Below are positions 1,517 through 25,651 of a DNA stretch of 49,832 bases, piece after piece; positions within the stretch are counted from its first letter, which is position 1; the number at the start of each line of letters is the position of its first letter. Location: assembly GCA_030684695.1 (NCBI GenBank), contig JAUXXX010000016.1:1-49832 (forward strand), in the 5' to 3' direction. A model generated the notes under the pieces. The model saw only the letters and a list, made by a program, of their open reading frames with translations. It was not told the DNA's origin and searched no databases. This DNA is from a bacterium (GTDB lineage Bacteria; Bacillota_I; Bacilli_A; Izemoplasmatales; Hujiaoplasmataceae). A program made the translations under genes and the position numbers.

Positions 1517-2017
1517 TCACTCCAAAATTGCGTCTGGGATAAACTCATCGGCATTCATATTGGTGAATACAGAAACGGTTAATTCGTTTGGTAGGCATAC
1601 AAGAGGTCGGAGTCTAGAGTCTGTTGGACTTTGAAGTTCACACAAATCACGCGGACTTTCTTGATAAGCAATTCTTATTTTTTGATTTTCTACCATTAAT
1701 TTGATGCCTACTACTTGGTTATCTTTGGCATAGTTATCTACTAAGTAGAGCATTTCCATCGACTGAGTTGTCGTTCCAGGGACATAAAAAATGCCTTCGC
1801 TTGCTAAACCAACGTTAATCTGATTTTTATAGGGGGTATTATAGATGACATATTCGTTGGTATGCAAATCAATCATTAAGATAAGTTCATCTTTATAAAA
1901 GACTTTTGCATACAACTCCCCTGTAGATTGCATCGAATCCCATAGTGATACTGCCCCAAACAACAACAAGAAAAGAACGGATACGATACTTAAAAACAGA
2001 ACATCTTGTTTACGCAT
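1517..2017 (-). CDS. Membrane-anchored NusG domain II protein
   Basis: The 166-residue protein begins with a signal anchor (residues 6-27). The C-terminal half resembles NusG domain II: a cysteine in the ESPRDLC stretch and a second in PLVCLPNELTV, as in that family. The function is not established. Such proteins are often found next to Gx-type transporters, ApbE and FMN-binding electron-transfer genes, and here apbE is divergent and the Gx transporter lies just beyond it. The two conserved cysteines could be a redox pair (inference). It has its own promoter at 2045-2073 and leads a two-gene operon with the DUF1146 gene. It is longer than the usual ~120 residues because of an inserted N-terminal region. 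Confidence 0.75.
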   Translation of the reverse strand: MRKQDVLFLSIVSVLFLLLFGAVSLWDSMQSTGELYAKVFYKDELILMIDLHTNEYVIYNTPYKNQINVGLASEGIFYVPGTTTQSMEMLYLVDNYAKDNQVVGIKLMVENQKIRIAYQESPRDLCELQSPTDSRLRPLVCLPNELTVSVFTNMNADEFIPDAILE

Positions 2018-2044
2018 CCAATCCCCTCCTTCAGCGATGAATCT

Positions 2045-2073
2045 ATTATACTAAATATATGTGATTTTTCCAA
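2045..2073 (-). promoter_or_regulatory. Promoter of the NusG-domain-II/DUF1146 operon
   Basis: The minus strand reads TTGGAA (2068-2073), a 17-base spacer, then TATAAT (2045-2050). It is back to back with the apbE promoter, with 18 bases between the two -35 boxes. Confidence 0.75.
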
Positions 2074-2091
2074 GAAGTGGTTTGATTTCTT

Positions 2092-2120
2092 TTGGCAAAC
2101 ACCATGAAATTTGGTATAAT
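2092..2120 (+). promoter_or_regulatory. apbE promoter
   Basis: TTGGCA (2092-2097), a 17-base spacer and TATAAT (2115-2120) give a near-consensus sigma-A promoter. It rules out the longer in-frame apbE start at 2092. Confidence 0.8.
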
Positions 2121-2136
2121 AGAACAGGTGATATTT

Positions 2137-3345
2137 ATGAAAAAGATGATAGCTTCTTTTATTGTTTTAATGATAGCCTTCAGTGTATCTTCTTGTACTA
2201 CAACCACTGTTTTTACCAATCCAAACAAAGATTTTTGTGTGCCAGCAACCAATACAGACTACTATAAATGCGATTTTTCTTGGACATCGTATTTTGATAC
2301 GATTATTCGTCTGACAGTCTATCCATCGAGTGGGGACTCCAAGACACTGCAAGAAATTCGCGATTCAGTATCTACGATTTTGCTGCAGCATCACCAATTA
2401 TTTGATAAATACAATGCGTATGAAGGCATTAACAACATCTATGCCATTAATCAACAAGCAGATACACCAACACCATTAAAAAATAATGAGTATGGTAAGA
2501 TGCAAATTGATCCGATTCTTTTTGAGGCCATCCAATTTGCACTCGCTAATGAAGAGTTAGTGAAAGCAGAGTCTGTAAAGTTATTTAGTATTGCCTTAGG
2601 ACCCGTACTAGAAATTTGGCACGACTTGAGAAATCAAACCTCTTGTGTGGATGATTTTTTCTTTGGTTCATTGGTATGTGACGCTCCCAGTCCACAACTA
2701 TTTAATCGTACGTTTGCAATAGATTCAAGTAAGATTATCTTGGATGAAACAACACACTCCATTGCTTTTTCGGTTCCTTATATGCGACTTGATGTTGGAG
2801 GATTTGCCAAAGGGTATGCTGCGGAAGTCGTCACTGATTTTCTTGATGATCTAAACATTCCCTATATTTTTAATGCAGGTAGTTCAAATGTAAAAGCTGG
2901 CGGAGTGAACCCTCAAACACTGGATGGTTTTTACAATGTCGCATTGACACAGCCCATCATTGGATTTTCGCTGTCCCAACCATTCTATGGAATTGTCAAA
3001 GTTGGCGAAGGGGTTTCGATTGTAACCAGCGGTAACTATCAACGATACTTCATTGGCTCACAAGATGGTAAAGTGTATCACCACATCATTGATCCACGTA
3101 CATTCTTCCCTGGAGGAGACACGATGTCTGTTTCTGTATTGCATGAAGATGGCGGGCTAGCGGATATCTACTCTACTGCTGTTTATTTACTTGGGTTGGA
3201 AGCCGGGTTGGCGTTTGTGAACAATACTCCTGGACTAGAAGCTATTTGGTACTTAAATGATAACACGATACAAGTTTCAAATGGAATTGCTGTGGGTACA
3301 TTTACATATAATAATCAGTCTTATCCTCAATATACCTTAAAATAA
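2137..3345 (+). CDS. apbE: FAD:protein FMN transferase, lipoprotein
   Basis: ApbE moves FMN from FAD onto a threonine of target proteins such as NqrB, NqrC, RnfD and RnfG, outside the cytoplasmic membrane. The 402-residue protein has a lipoprotein signal peptide ending at SVSSC. It carries the family blocks DVGGFAKGYAAEV, the N-A-G-S-S-N segment, HHIIDPRT, and a late LADIYSTA block that corresponds to the metal-binding DALSTA region. The start at ATG 2137 fits the promoter at 2092-2120, an AGGTGAT ribosome site and the signal peptide. Its likely substrates in this window are the NqrB-like and NqrC-like proteins at 23930-25506. The final block is slightly divergent (IYS in place of ALS). Confidence 0.93.
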   Translation: MKKMIASFIVLMIAFSVSSCTTTTVFTNPNKDFCVPATNTDYYKCDFSWTSYFDTIIRLTVYPSSGDSKTLQEIRDSVSTILLQHHQLFDKYNAYEGINNIYAINQQADTPTPLKNNEYGKMQIDPILFEAIQFALANEELVKAESVKLFSIALGPVLEIWHDLRNQTSCVDDFFFGSLVCDAPSPQLFNRTFAIDSSKIILDETTHSIAFSVPYMRLDVGGFAKGYAAEVVTDFLDDLNIPYIFNAGSSNVKAGGVNPQTLDGFYNVALTQPIIGFSLSQPFYGIVKVGEGVSIVTSGNYQRYFIGSQDGKVYHHIIDPRTFFPGGDTMSVSVLHEDGGLADIYSTAVYLLGLEAGLAFVNNTPGLEAIWYLNDNTIQVSNGIAVGTFTYNNQSYPQYTLK

Positions 3346-3349
3346 CAAA

Positions 3350-3386
3350 AGCGAGATTTTCTATTTCTAGATAATCTCGCTATTTA
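3350..3386. terminator. Bidirectional terminator after apbE
   Basis: GCGAGATT (3351-3358) pairs with AATCTCGC (3373-3380), flanked by T-rich sequence on both strands. The flanking genes converge here. Confidence 0.75.
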
Positions 3387-3387
3387 T

Positions 3388-3909
3388 TTATTCATATTCA
3401 GGATTTCGTAGTTGATTTTCGAAAATAGTGACCATTCGTTTACTTACTAAGCCAGTAAAGATTCCTGCAGGAATGGATGTTAATAACATGTATGGAATCA
3501 AATAGACAAACTGTTCGGTAGAAATGAGCAAAATGAGGGTGAAAATCTGACCGATAATATGCATAATCGAACCCGCTACACTGATGGAAATGATGGAGAA
3601 AACCTTCATTTTTCGAAAAAGGATCATCGTTATAATCGCTAGAACACCGCCGCCAAACGATGTTAATGACAAGATACTAAAGAATCCACTATATAACAAA
3701 GATACTAAGAAAATCCGAACAAACAAGACCAGAATGGCTTCTTTTGGGGAATAAACCATTAGAACAACTAGTACAATAATATTGGCTAATCCGATTTTAA
3801 TCCATGGAGCCGCAGGATAGATGAACGGTGAGATTGCAGACTCCACAATAGATAAAACAATGCTAATGGATATTAGAATAGATAAGAACACAAGCTTCTT
3901 TAGTTTCAT
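3388..3909 (-). CDS. Gx transporter family protein (HepS component I-like)
   Basis: This 173-residue membrane protein has about five hydrophobic segments. It resembles the Gx transporter family, often labelled heptaprenyl diphosphate synthase component I, with the typical N-terminal SAISPFIYPAAPWIKIGLAN region. The family is suspected to be a small-molecule S-component-like transporter, and the substrate is unknown. In many Firmicutes it sits next to NusG-domain-II, ApbE or FMN-binding genes, and the same neighbourhood is seen here. The upstream in-frame ATG at 3975 is rejected because it lies in a terminator stem; ATG 3909 has an AGGTGAT site and a promoter just upstream. Confidence 0.8.
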   Translation of the reverse strand: MKLKKLVFLSILISISIVLSIVESAISPFIYPAAPWIKIGLANIIVLVVLMVYSPKEAILVLFVRIFLVSLLYSGFFSILSLTSFGGGVLAIITMILFRKMKVFSIISISVAGSIMHIIGQIFTLILLISTEQFVYLIPYMLLTSIPAGIFTGLVSKRMVTIFENQLRNPEYE

Positions 3910-3925
3910 AAAATCACCTTGAATC

Positions 3926-3954
3926 ATTGTATCACATTGCCATAAAACTCTCAA
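3926..3954 (-). promoter_or_regulatory. Promoter of the Gx transporter gene
   Basis: The minus strand reads TTGAGA (3949-3954), 17 bases, then TACAAT (3926-3931). The -35 box starts directly behind the T tail of the preceding terminator. Confidence 0.75.
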
Positions 3955-3955
3955 G

Positions 3956-3988
3956 CAAAAACGCAAAGCGAGCAATTGCTTTGCGTTT
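3956..3988 (-). terminator. Terminator after the WG-repeat lipoprotein gene
   Basis: AACGCAAAGC (3960-3969) pairs with GCTTTGCGTT (3978-3987). The minus strand continues into a run of Ts. Confidence 0.8.
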
Positions 3989-21559: not shown

Positions 21560-21591
21560 TGAAAACCGTGAAGCGAAGACCTCACGGTTAC
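21560..21591 (-). terminator. Terminator of the nqr operon
   Basis: AACCGTGA (21564-21571) pairs with TCACGGTT (21582-21589), and the minus strand continues TTTTC. Confidence 0.75.
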
Positions 21592-21595
21592 TATA

Positions 21596-22678
21596 CTACG
21601 AGAATTTATCGTAAAATACATTTTGTTTTAAAATTTTGTGTTTATTCAATACCCGGATACATGCATCAATCATCCCAGGCGATCCGCAAAGATACGCTTC
21701 AGATTCGGTTAAATCACCCGTGAATCGATCCACAACATCCGTAATCAGTCCTACTTCACCCTGCCAATTGTCTTCTGGAAGTGGACTCGATAATGCCGGA
21801 ATGTATTCAAAGTTTGGAAACTCTTTGGACAACTCCAAAAATTCCTCTGTGTAATACAAATCTTTTAATGATTTGGCTCCAAAAAAGTACTTCACCTTTC
21901 TTGGCATTCCACGATCTTTTAAATACGCAAGAATCGAACGAATCGGTGCTTTTCCCGATCCCCCAGCAATACAAATCATATCTTTGTTGGAGTTTTCTTG
22001 CAAGTAGAAATCACCAAATGGTCCAGTAACAATAATCTTATCGCCCACTTCTAAAGCATTGTGTACAAACCCCGTGGCTTGACCTTTGGGAACCATTCTG
22101 ATGATCATTTCAATTTGATTGGTTTGAGATGGATTGGATGCAATCGAATAGGCCCGAATAATATCAATCCCAGGAACCTTAATTTGAGCATATTGACCTG
22201 GCTTAAATGACATTGTATTGGGTTTTTTTAGTTTAAACTGAACCAACTTAATATCATAGGTCAGATCTTCAATATTGACAACTTCTGTATGGTATTCTTT
22301 AGCATAAAGCATGGTTTCTGGTATTTCAATCGAAATGTTATCTTTGACTTTTACTTGGCATGACAAGCGAACCCCATCTGCTTTTTCCTTTTCGCTTAAG
22401 AAAGGATCTTCCATTGCTTTCCGTTCTCCGCCGCCTTCGGTTACTTTACACTTACAAAATCCACAAGTGGCTTTCCCACCACAAGCAGAAGGAATAAAGA
22501 TTTTTTGTTGAGCTAGGGTATTTAATAAAGTTTCTTCGCCAGTCACCGGAATTTTGGTATGTTTGTTAATCGTAATGATTTTTTCACCACCACCGCCAAG
22601 TAAATAACTGATTCCAATCAAGATGAGTGTAATAACAAGCATGACTCCGACGAGGATCAATGGTACGTATATGTTCAT
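21596..22678 (-). CDS. nqrF: Na+-NQR subunit F-like NADH dehydrogenase
   Basis: NqrF oxidises NADH with FAD and passes single electrons to a 2Fe-2S centre. The 360-residue protein has an N-terminal membrane helix (about 5-28). A plant-type ferredoxin domain follows with Cys66, Cys72, Cys75 and Cys107. A ferredoxin-NADP reductase module completes it: RAYSIASNP for FAD, GGSGKAPIRSIL for the nicotinamide side and LCGSPGM near the C-terminus. NqrF is usually about 405 residues, so this copy is compact. It is the last gene of an nqrBCDEF operon without nqrA. Confidence 0.92.
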   Translation of the reverse strand: MNIYVPLILVGVMLVITLILIGISYLLGGGGEKIITINKHTKIPVTGEETLLNTLAQQKIFIPSACGGKATCGFCKCKVTEGGGERKAMEDPFLSEKEKADGVRLSCQVKVKDNISIEIPETMLYAKEYHTEVVNIEDLTYDIKLVQFKLKKPNTMSFKPGQYAQIKVPGIDIIRAYSIASNPSQTNQIEMIIRMVPKGQATGFVHNALEVGDKIIVTGPFGDFYLQENSNKDMICIAGGSGKAPIRSILAYLKDRGMPRKVKYFFGAKSLKDLYYTEEFLELSKEFPNFEYIPALSSPLPEDNWQGEVGLITDVVDRFTGDLTESEAYLCGSPGMIDACIRVLNKHKILKQNVFYDKFS

Positions 22679-22687
22679 ATAATCCTC

Positions 22688-23269
22688 CTAAATATTCGCG
22701 ATGCCAGTGAATCCAATAAAGGCAAGTGCTAAAATTCCAAGGACAATAAAAACAATCCCTTTCCCAGCAAGCCCTTTTGGTAAATCACTATTTTTCGCCA
22801 TTTTTTCACGAATACCTGCAAGAAGAATAATGGCGATCATCCAACCAACTGCAGAACCAAAGGAAAACACAGCGGTTTCACCAAAGGTGTATTCGCGGTT
22901 CACAAAGAACAACGAAACAGCCAATACAATACAGTTCACAGTGATGAGTGGTAAGTAGATACCAAACGCATTATAAAGCTTCGGTAGATATTTTTCTAGT
23001 AATAATTCTAAGATTTGAACCGTTGCAGCGATGGTAATCATAAAGACCAACAATGATAAATGTTCTGTTTGTGTACTTTTCAACAATTGATAGATGGGAT
23101 AGTTGATCACTGCGGTTAGTGTTACAACCAAGACGACAGCGAGTCCCATTCCTTTTGCATTTTTCACATTGGTGGAAATTGCAATCAGTGGACACATACC
23201 TAAAATATAGGTAAGAGCTATGTTATGGTTGGTTAATGTTGCGAGAAGTAACTCGATTAATCGTTCCAT
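22688..23269 (-). CDS. nqrE: Na+-NQR subunit E-like membrane protein
   Basis: The 193-residue, six-helix protein matches NqrE better than RnfA. It has LGMC near residue 26, LPLITVNC with Cys113, VQILELLLEKYLPKLYNAFG and the C-terminal VGWMIAIILLAGIREKM. In the Nqr complex, NqrD and NqrE each supply two cysteines to an intramembrane iron centre; both positions (Cys26, Cys113) are kept. Its start lies 25 bases after nqrD. Confidence 0.92.
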   Translation of the reverse strand: MERLIELLLATLTNHNIALTYILGMCPLIAISTNVKNAKGMGLAVVLVVTLTAVINYPIYQLLKSTQTEHLSLLVFMITIAATVQILELLLEKYLPKLYNAFGIYLPLITVNCIVLAVSLFFVNREYTFGETAVFSFGSAVGWMIAIILLAGIREKMAKNSDLPKGLAGKGIVFIVLGILALAFIGFTGIANI

Positions 23270-23294
23270 TTAATGTCCCTCCATGATCCTATAT

Positions 23295-23918
23295 TTACGT
23301 CGTTTCATAATACTTGGTCAATTCACGAATGCCCCAAATGAAGAGCCCAAGCACGAAGAATCCACCTGGAGCTAAGGACATAACAACCCAATTTGTCCAA
23401 TTAGCACCCATAATCGAAACCCCAAGAATCGATCCATTTGCGAGTAACTCACGCACAATCGCGACAACCACTAACACGAAGGTATACCCCATACCGCTGG
23501 CAAAGCCATCAATTAAGGAATACTTTACTGGATTTTTGACTGCGAATGCCTCAGCTCGTCCCATCACGATACAGTTGGTAATAATCAAGCCAACATACGC
23601 TCCTAGTTGCTTTGCAATGGTTGGAAAATAAGCAGCTAAAAACATTTGAACGGAAATAACAAATGTAGAAATGACAACCATATACGTAACCATCCGGACT
23701 TTCGGTGGAATCAACTTACGTAGTAAAGAAATGGTTGCGGAACTTGCCATGACAACAAACGTCACTCCAAGTCCCATTGCAATCGCGTTTTCAACTCTAT
23801 TTGATACCGCAAGTGAAGAACAAATCCCTAGTACCGCAATCACGATTGGATTGTTTTTCACCAATCCATCTTTGGAGATGTTAAACCACTTGGTATATTT
23901 TACTCGAATTAGTTTCAT
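23295..23918 (-). CDS. nqrD: Na+-NQR subunit D-like membrane protein
   Basis: The 207-residue membrane protein has the NqrD/RnfE pattern with NNPIVIAVLGICSSLAV (Cys33) and LIITNCIVMGRAEAFA (Cys116). The G-I-C-S-x-L form is closer to NqrD than to RnfE (C-P-x-L). The cysteine pair would bind the shared intramembrane iron centre with NqrE. ATG 23918 has a strong GGGGGCC-type site; a longer in-frame start at 23945 would overlap nqrC by 16 bases and is less likely. Confidence 0.9.
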   Translation of the reverse strand: MKLIRVKYTKWFNISKDGLVKNNPIVIAVLGICSSLAVSNRVENAIAMGLGVTFVVMASSATISLLRKLIPPKVRMVTYMVVISTFVISVQMFLAAYFPTIAKQLGAYVGLIITNCIVMGRAEAFAVKNPVKYSLIDGFASGMGYTFVLVVVAIVRELLANGSILGVSIMGANWTNWVVMSLAPGGFFVLGLFIWGIRELTKYYETT

Positions 23919-23929
23919 ACTTTGGCCCC

Positions 23930-24562
23930 CTACCGTGCGTTCCACGCAGCGAGGTGAGCAGCGTAGTTCGTATTTAGGATAAATTCAAAAGCTTGTGAAG
24001 TTCTGGTAGCACCAACAATACTATCAACTTCATTGGGTAAATTCACTTGATTATCGTCTTTATTTATTTCGATGAATAAGGCGACATCTGTGTTTGGCGC
24101 TGGATATCGTTTTATTGAAGCTTGGTCAAATGTTTTTCCAACAAATTGTGCCAAATACGGAGCCTCTGCAACAACGCCTCCAAGTCCAGGTGTTTCTTCC
24201 TGTTGAAGGATAGTTATTGAGACAATCGTGACAAAATCGGACTCAAAGGTAATAATCCCAATGATGTCTCCCCACACTCCACCACCTATAAACCGAAAAC
24301 TAATACGATTTGTGTCTTTTCCAACATAGAACGTATAGCCATCTAAGACAACCGTTTCAATCTTCTCGTTAAAGAAGGTATTGATGTTCGCGGCTGTGAA
24401 CTGGTTTGCGTATCCATTCGCAATTAAGACTGTCGATTGATTGTCAAAATTTTTGTTGGCTTCGATACGATCTCTTGTAAGAGCATCCATCCCAACAAGA
24501 ATCCCTGAAGTAAACAATCCAAGCACAAGAACAAAGAGTATCATTTTTATGTTTTGATTCAT
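23930..24562 (-). CDS. nqrC: Na+-NQR subunit C / RnfG-like FMN-binding protein
   Basis: The 210-residue protein has an N-terminal signal anchor (about 7-26) and an external FMN-binding domain with EETPGLGG (about 122-129). The flavinylation motif is DSIVGATRTS, with FMN expected on Thr186. It carries V-G-A-T rather than the usual S-G-A-T. FMN would be attached by ApbE (2137-3345). The protein is shorter than Vibrio NqrC (about 257 residues) and nearer RnfG in length. It overlaps nqrB by four bases (ATGA), showing translational coupling. Confidence 0.9.
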   Translation of the reverse strand: MNQNIKMILFVLVLGLFTSGILVGMDALTRDRIEANKNFDNQSTVLIANGYANQFTAANINTFFNEKIETVVLDGYTFYVGKDTNRISFRFIGGGVWGDIIGIITFESDFVTIVSITILQQEETPGLGGVVAEAPYLAQFVGKTFDQASIKRYPAPNTDVALFIEINKDDNQVNLPNEVDSIVGATRTSQAFEFILNTNYAAHLAAWNAR

Positions 24563-25506
24563 ACGACTGCCTCCGTTTCCTCAACAGACAAACCTTTTTC
24601 TTTTCCAATGGTATCCAGAAGTGGTCCAATTGCATTCATAATAATGATGGAAAAAGTTACTCCTTCTGGGAAAGTAGCGAAGTTACGTATCACTACGGTA
24701 AAAAATCCGAGTCCTATTCCATAAAGAATCTTGGCCAAAGGTTTCATCGGTGCCGTGACCGGATCGGTTGCGACAAAGAATGCCCCAAACAATAAACCAC
24801 CTAGCAATAACGACATAATAGGATCTTTAAAACCAGTGAGCCCGAATAGTTGACCCAAGGCATTTAATCCAAATACGGTAGCTAAGTAGAAAAGTGGAAT
24901 TCTCCAGTCAGCCACTTTCAACACAAGTAATAAAATTCCTAATATCAAAATACCCAAACGGAATGTTTCTCCAATGGTTCCTGGCATCATCCCATTCAAC
25001 ATTTGCCATAGAGTGTATGGTATTTCTCCCCCACGATTAAAAACAATCAATGGTGTCGCTGCCGCTACGGCATCGATTCCTGGCGTGTACCATCCTAAAT
25101 TCGGATCAAACCACGAAACCGCTGTAAATGCTGGAAAGGAAATTAAGATAAATAACAATCCAACGATTGCTGGATTAAAGACGTTTTTTCCATATCCACC
25201 AAACACTGCTTTTCCAAAGAAAACCCCGAAAGCAGAACCAACTGCCACAATCCACAAAGGAATCGTTGGAGTCATCAATAGCGCAAACACGAGTGGTGAA
25301 ACATACCATGAAACATCAATACTGCGTTTTCTTGCTTTGGCAAACAACACTTCTACTGCAATCGCAGCACCGTAGGAGACGGCTGTGATTGCTAAGACAT
25401 AAAAGCCAAAAATCACCGTGGAAGCTATTAACAAAATCAATAGAGCTCCGGTGTAAATCAGCAAATTTCTATTTTGCTTGGGGGTAATTGCATTACCCTG
25501 ATTCAT
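24559..25506 (-). CDS. nqrB: Na+-NQR subunit B / RnfD-like membrane protein
   Basis: The 315-residue protein has about eight to ten membrane helices and the family blocks GVFFGKAVFGGYGKNVFNPA (about 94-113), LNGMMPGTIGE, AFFVATDPVTAP and the C-terminal RNFATFPEGV. The covalent-FMN region reads GIDAVAAATPL, with Thr151 the likely acceptor; the usual S-G-A-T is A-A-A-T here. Vibrio NqrB is about 415 residues, so the N-terminal extension that helps bind NqrA and quinone is missing, as in RnfD. It is the first gene of the operon, directly behind a promoter with a palindrome. Confidence 0.88.
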   Translation of the reverse strand: MNQGNAITPKQNRNLLIYTGALLILLIASTVIFGFYVLAITAVSYGAAIAVEVLFAKARKRSIDVSWYVSPLVFALLMTPTIPLWIVAVGSAFGVFFGKAVFGGYGKNVFNPAIVGLLFILISFPAFTAVSWFDPNLGWYTPGIDAVAAATPLIVFNRGGEIPYTLWQMLNGMMPGTIGETFRLGILILGILLLVLKVADWRIPLFYLATVFGLNALGQLFGLTGFKDPIMSLLLGGLLFGAFFVATDPVTAPMKPLAKILYGIGLGFFTVVIRNFATFPEGVTFSIIIMNAIGPLLDTIGKEKGLSVEETEAVV

Positions 25507-25627: not shown

Positions 25628-25651
25628 TCAGGCAAGAGACTACTTGCCTGA
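25628..25651 (-). terminator. Terminator of the opp operon
   Basis: TCAGGCAAG (25628-25636) pairs with CTTGCCTGA (25643-25651), followed on the minus strand by TTTTCTTTTC. The stop codon of the last gene lies inside the hairpin. Confidence 0.75.

Follow-up and report, generated by a model that had tools for sequence, protein, structure and literature searches.

A conserved nqrBCDEF operon lacking nqrA in a bacterium of the Hujiaoplasmataceae, and the question of its electron acceptor

Genes and cofactor sites of the operon

We analyzed a stretch of 49,832 nucleotides (the window) from contig JAUXXX010000016.1 of the draft assembly GCA_030684695.1, a bacterium of the order Izemoplasmatales. 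The subject is an operon that encodes homologues of the subunits NqrB to NqrF of the Na+-translocating NADH:quinone oxidoreductase (Na+-NQR). On the minus strand, from position 25506 to 21596, five adjacent open reading frames (ORFs) are found in the order nqrB-C-D-E-F (Table 1), tightly packed and intact. Searches against Pfam and NCBIfam were concordant on the families of all five subunits. Thus, the gene order proposed in an earlier note, which was made from the sequence alone, is borne out by the ORFs and by both searches. For nqrD, an internal ATG about 9 codons into the ORF is a likelier start.

None of the five subunits reached the cut-off of its own NCBIfam nqr model. The NqrF score was 277.7 bits as compared to a cut-off of 295 for TIGR01941, although the Pfam domains and the invariant motifs are nonetheless present. 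The protein here called NqrB scored above the NCBIfam cut-off for rnfD alone (217.6 versus 207.05 bits).

The key residues listed in the earlier note, which are the 2Fe-2S cysteines in NqrF, two cysteines in each of NqrD and NqrE and the threonine sites in NqrB and NqrC, were all recovered. The four cysteines of NqrF (C66, C72, C75 and C107) were invariant in 59 of 59 aligned rows, and its reductase domain carries the motifs RAYS, GGSG and CGSPGM. The cysteine pairs of NqrD (C42 and C125) and of NqrE (C26 and C113) were invariant in all 56 rows of their respective alignments. The threonine of NqrB that binds flavin mononucleotide (FMN) is located within the motif DAVAAATPL. The window has both this threonine and the riboflavin-site aspartate; of 45 relatives with an operon without nqrA (A-less relatives), 36 keep the threonine and 42 the aspartate. 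Judged from these residues, the internal electron path looks intact, from the flavin adenine dinucleotide (FAD) and 2Fe-2S cluster of NqrF through the 2Fe-2S cluster of NqrD/E and the FMN of NqrC to the FMN and riboflavin of NqrB.

Enzymes of the ApbE family attach FMN to flavinylation sites such as those in NqrB and NqrC. The window encodes the sole ApbE match found in the genome, and 10 of the 12 relatives that were tested also have ApbE. The gene adjoins NusG_II and Hpre_diP_synt_I/ECF-like genes, 18 kb from the nqr operon, and the group is likely to represent a flavinylation cluster. In two genomes of one genus (G048 and G065; loci L058, L093 and L094), no ApbE match was found, methionine replaces the FMN threonine of NqrB and the flavinylation motif of NqrC is kept.

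The genes on either side of the operon are unrelated to it, with a HlyIII-like gene downstream and an ORF of 133 amino acids without a Pfam match upstream. The operon had been described as bounded by a promoter and a terminator. Terminator-like hairpins are present at both sides, although such matches were barely commoner than in shuffled sequence. The promoter was not supported, as promoter-like matches were no commoner than in shuffled sequence. An Rfam search of the window at gathering scores returned only transfer RNAs and no riboswitch.

Table 1. Coordinates of the genes and other features discussed in the text.
Feature	Sequence	Position	Strand	Description
nqrB (rnfD-like)	window	24559..25506	-	Membrane subunit, 315 aa; FMN threonine T151; riboflavin-site D248; without canonical N-terminal quinone-pocket helices
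nqrC	window	23930..24562	-	210 aa; single FMN_bind domain; flavinylation site DSIVGATRT
nqrD	window	23295..23945	-	216 aa; cysteines C42, C125
nqrE	window	22688..23269	-	193 aa; cysteines C26, C113
nqrF	window	21596..22678	-	360 aa; membrane anchor, 2Fe-2S domain, FAD/NADH reductase domain
Terminator-like hairpin	window	21564..21589	-	Directly after nqrF
Terminator-like hairpin	window	25628..25651	-	Upstream of nqrB, at end of neighbouring gene
apbE	window	2092..3345	+	FMN transferase; lipoprotein-like N-terminus
NusG_II, ApbE and Hpre_diP_synt_I/ECF-like genes	window	1517-3975		Adjoining one another
Mini-RnfB	L005 (contig C71)	9764-10051		About 95 aa
Mini-RnfB	L130	9154-9453		About 95 aa
Enlarged NqrC	L057	11329-13356		675 aa; four FMN_bind domains
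Enlarged NqrC	L056	10648-12243		531 aa
Second rnfE/rnfA-like set	L089	2-1200
Second rnfE/rnfA-like set	L090	431-3152
Second rnfE/rnfA-like set	L095	484-3186
Protein after nqrF	L097	7097-7555		About 150 aa
Protein after nqrF	L098	7102-7563		About 150 aa
Protein after nqrF	L099	1504-1971		About 150 aa
Protein after nqrF	L100	6002-6502		About 150 aa
Protein after nqrF	L101	5176-5628		About 150 aa

Absence of nqrA and conservation of the layout

Neither nqrA nor rnfB or rnfC was found adjoining the operon, as judged from the ORFs and a Pfam search of its neighbours in the window, and the draft genome (129 contigs, 87% complete) contained no NQRA_N match. The nqrA model TIGR01936 gave nothing above its cut-off in 37 genomes with nqrF, which comprise this genome and 36 relatives, and the weak matches mostly fell where the rnfC model also matches. 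There was no match to nqrA in nine further genomes either, whereas the Flavobacterium control scored 496 bits. These genomes include those with the Kosmotogaceae, Sphaerochaeta and Clostridiales DTU024 loci, the cultured Paracholeplasma vituli and Peloplasma aerotolerans, and strain MO-XQ.

For rnfB and rnfC, the earlier statement of absence is correct only in the surroundings of the operon. A separate operon on contig C71 has the order rnfC-D-G-G-E-A and, after these genes, encodes an RnfB of 95 aa in which one cluster motif is present. This mini-RnfB, which ends the rnf operon, is without the ferredoxin domains of ordinary RnfB, and short RnfB-like ORFs of about 100 amino acids recur in relatives. 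Two genomes considered as candidates for an nqrBCDEF operon without rnfC were rejected. In G048, contig C29 begins inside rnfD and rnfC is probably located just beyond the contig end, and in G062 broken pieces of rnfC are present.

The survey of relatives showed that the five-gene layout is conserved. We identified nqrF in 37 of 150 relatives, with 57–75% identity over the full length, and in 28 of 392 genomes sampled across the phylum. All 20 of the relatives' neighbourhoods examined displayed the order nqrB-C-D-E-F without nqrA. Their flanks differ, and several are located on contigs of 1.3–2.0 Mb. The same order was observed on public contigs from more Acholeplasma/Izemoplasma-type genomes and from Sphaerochaeta, Victivallaceae, Kosmotogaceae and Clostridia.

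Some of the loci differ in their details. NqrC is enlarged in two of them (L056 and L057). In three others, a second, divergent rnfE/rnfA-like set is located directly upstream of nqrB, preceded where the contig extends by an RnfD-like protein of about 500 amino acids; an FMN_bind domain was present in the one from L095, the sole one tested. In the A-less operons of Kosmotogaceae, Sphaerochaeta, Victivallaceae and Clostridia, a conserved protein of about 150 amino acids follows nqrF. It belongs to no Pfam or NCBIfam family, and its structure was predicted with confidence (predicted local distance difference test score 86) and had no match in PDB at E <= 0.001. This protein was not found in the Bacilli nqr loci examined, no genome-wide search having been made. 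It could be a partner or acceptor of the A-less complex. As the acceptor it was set aside, since it has no known family, no PDB match and no counterpart in those Bacilli loci.

Electron path and candidate acceptors

In the mechanism that we propose, NADH would reduce the FAD of NqrF, from which electrons would pass through the 2Fe-2S cluster of NqrF to the cluster between NqrD and NqrE. NqrC, whose covalently bound FMN is located outside the membrane, would receive them next and pass them on to NqrB, to its covalent FMN and on to the riboflavin close to the cytosolic face. As has been argued for RNF, the step at the NqrD/E cluster would presumably be the one coupled to Na+ export. Work on the RNF complex of A. 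woodii assigned the movement of Na+ to RnfA/E, which are homologous to NqrE/D (PMC11889175), and it is this result, together with the conserved D/E core, that makes pumping of Na+ plausible here. The retained FMN threonine and riboflavin-site aspartate of NqrB suggest that the electrons return to the cytosolic face. The final acceptor, reached from the NqrB riboflavin, would be something other than a home-made prenyl quinone, most likely a protein, whether soluble or peripheral, or else oxygen, that takes up the electrons where NqrB is exposed to the cytosol. Some relatives may send them outward through NqrC instead. The external flavoprotein suggested in the earlier note is possible as an acceptor, but the two retained NqrB residues point to the cytosolic return path.

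From the sequences we infer the assembly of the five subunits, the oxidation of NADH, the pumping of Na+ and the acceptor side. We consider it somewhat probable, at roughly 55%, that the operon encodes a working RNF/NQR-family complex of five subunits, without NqrA or RnfC, that oxidizes NADH independently of quinone and probably pumps Na+. Any specific named acceptor is held with less confidence than this. More tentatively, and at somewhat less than even odds, A-less NQR may represent a third functional type of RNF/NQR pump. Such a pump would need neither NqrA nor RnfC nor quinone to drive Na+ export by the oxidation of NADH, would deliver electrons to a dedicated acceptor and would have a respiratory role in Bacilli of the wall-less type that have no quinone.

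Several observations weigh against a quinone-independent Na+ pump of this composition. The specificity for Na+ is not readable from sequence. A UbiA-family gene is present in 8 of 26 nqrF genomes, and an imported quinone or a menadione-like compound is a possible acceptor. The rnfC gene scored above its cut-off in 31 of 37 nqrF genomes, and sharing of RnfC is possible. Several A-less relatives are without the FMN threonine of NqrB, which is a better fit to an outward outlet.

Such an outlet is the basis of an alternative that we regard as unlikely, in which NqrC feeds extracytosolic flavoproteins or extracellular acceptors. The complex would then be a transmembrane reductase between NADH and an external acceptor, with NqrB in a secondary role. 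The loss of the NqrB threonine in those relatives is consistent with this alternative, as are the two enlarged NqrC proteins, one with four FMN_bind domains, and the small membrane-anchored FMN_bind proteins encoded in the genome and in relatives. Flavinylated extracytosolic wires are also an established theme (PMC8238504, PMC11334425). However, the window and most relatives keep the FMN and riboflavin-site residues of NqrB, which would be needless for an outward outlet, and no external reductase gene adjoins the operon.

We then consider the quinone. Cryo-electron microscopy has located ubiquinone on NqrB, enclosed by two N-terminal amphipathic helices and in contact with F159 and G141 (PMC10643135), and these helices are absent from RnfD according to a review (PMC12174285). 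The window NqrB could be aligned to Vibrio NqrB from residue 126–127 onward only, which indicates that the N-terminal helices of the quinone pocket are missing and agrees with the earlier description of an NqrB without the long N-terminus. Ile49 of the window NqrB is found at the position of Vibrio G141, where two of the five canonical rows vary as well. The known routes to ubiquinone and menaquinone require prenyltransferases of the UbiA family. No UbiA-family match was found in the 87% complete draft, nor in 15 of 18 good-quality nqrF genomes, with all 14 controls positive. Because the quinone helices are missing and UbiA is not found in this genome or in most good-quality relatives, a self-made prenyl quinone is an unlikely acceptor.

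The complex might still reduce quinone with NADH in the ordinary way but without NqrA, with a quinone that is imported or unconventional and binds at another site on NqrB. In the Vibrio NQR, NqrA has no cofactor and the quinone is bound by NqrB (PMC10643135, PMC12174285), which is consistent with this possibility, as is the UbiA-family gene in a minority of the nqrF genomes. We nevertheless judge it improbable, given that the helices closing the pocket are missing from NqrB and that UbiA was found neither in the genome nor in most good-quality relatives.

Another alternative is a hybrid in which RnfC, encoded in the separate rnf operon, joins the five Nqr subunits and serves as their output subunit. 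The gene is at hand in this genome and in most nqrF genomes. However, in A. woodii the N- and C-terminal loops of RnfD bind RnfC (PMC11889175), and most RnfDs, as well as the canonical NqrBs compared, have a short motif of the PHVRD or SPYIRK type ahead of their first membrane helix. This motif is missing from the A-less NqrBs (pattern count 1 of 45, the one being an unrelated PLVK). We infer that the motif is a putative docking element. In addition, since RnfC reduces NAD+, the hybrid would in sum only move electrons from NADH back to NAD+, and RnfD, G, E and A are already encoded alongside RnfC in the rnf operon. The hybrid is thus weakened, and we consider it very improbable. An assembly gap or a recent deletion of nqrA that left a non-functional remnant, as the fragmentation of the draft might suggest, is ruled out by the conserved layout in the relatives, several on long contigs, and by an NqrF that is similar over its length and invariant cofactor residues.

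The missing helices, the absence of UbiA from most genomes and the lost N-terminal motif thus support the acceptor other than quinone that had been proposed. Published reports treat A-less NQR in passing and leave the acceptor open. The results presented here show a conserved layout in Acholeplasma/Izemoplasma-type (wall-less-type) bacteria, in which most genomes are without a UbiA match and the known quinone pocket is missing. For this reason, the question of the acceptor is directly testable in the cultured carriers Paracholeplasma vituli and Peloplasma aerotolerans. It bears on the role of NqrA in ordinary NQR and on the divergence of RNF and NQR.

Relation to known NQR and RNF systems

Phylogenetic analysis of the subunits, as had been called for, was carried out on B, D and E combined, with five sets representing RNF. 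The NqrF-bearing complexes, including that of the window, were separated from RNF (support 100/100), and the Bacilli A-less operons formed a clade with support 100/100. In the free tree, the A-less operons from outside Bacilli grouped with canonical NQR (94/92), but the approximately unbiased test did not reject one single A-less clade (p = 0.096). It is possible that NqrA was lost once, lost twice or gained late.

The A-less layout is already known, though uncharacterized. NqrBCDEF without NqrA has been reported in Pseudothermotoga thermarum and P. lettingae (PMC4148951) and in Clostridium ultunense, in a paper that also shows an nqr set for Alkaliphilus metalliredigens (PMC5924567). A further paper lists NqrBCDEF for 'Ca. 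Izimaplasma' ZiA1 and cites an NQR complex in Acholeplasma palmae (PMC6256511). That the electrons might go to another acceptor has likewise been put forward in print (PMC4148951, PMC5924567; also PMC6256511). With contiguous nqrB-C-D-E-F and no nqrA found elsewhere, the window operon is a further member of this group. By their published descriptions, the operons of Pseudothermotoga, C. ultunense and ZiA1 resemble it in their five genes and the order of these, in the absence of a reported nqrA and in the presence of an rnf operon in the same genome. The species alone differs, the window operon being from the Acholeplasma/Izemoplasma-type clade.

The six-subunit Na+-NQR, for example of Vibrio cholerae, shares with the window operon the homologues of NqrB to NqrF, their order, the cofactor-binding residues and NqrF as the entry point for NADH. 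In contrast to it, the window set is without NqrA and the N-terminal quinone helices of NqrB, is below all NCBIfam nqr cut-offs, and has an NqrF without the insertion of 31–33 residues present in five of the six canonical-group NqrFs compared. The RNF complex (RnfABCDGE) contains homologues in RnfD, G, E and A, and the window NqrB is RnfD-like in both length and score. In the operon, however, NqrF replaces RnfB and there is no RnfC, and the B+D+E tree puts the complex with the NqrF-bearing ones. Finally, NQR/RNF-like flavinylation systems are partial sets in which NAD(P)H is thought to supply electrons to an FMN domain outside the cytosol (PMC8238504, PMC11334425). In these systems, an NqrB/RnfD domain and an NAD-binding domain of the NqrF type are fused, whereas the window operon encodes five separate subunits, including the NqrD/NqrE pair.

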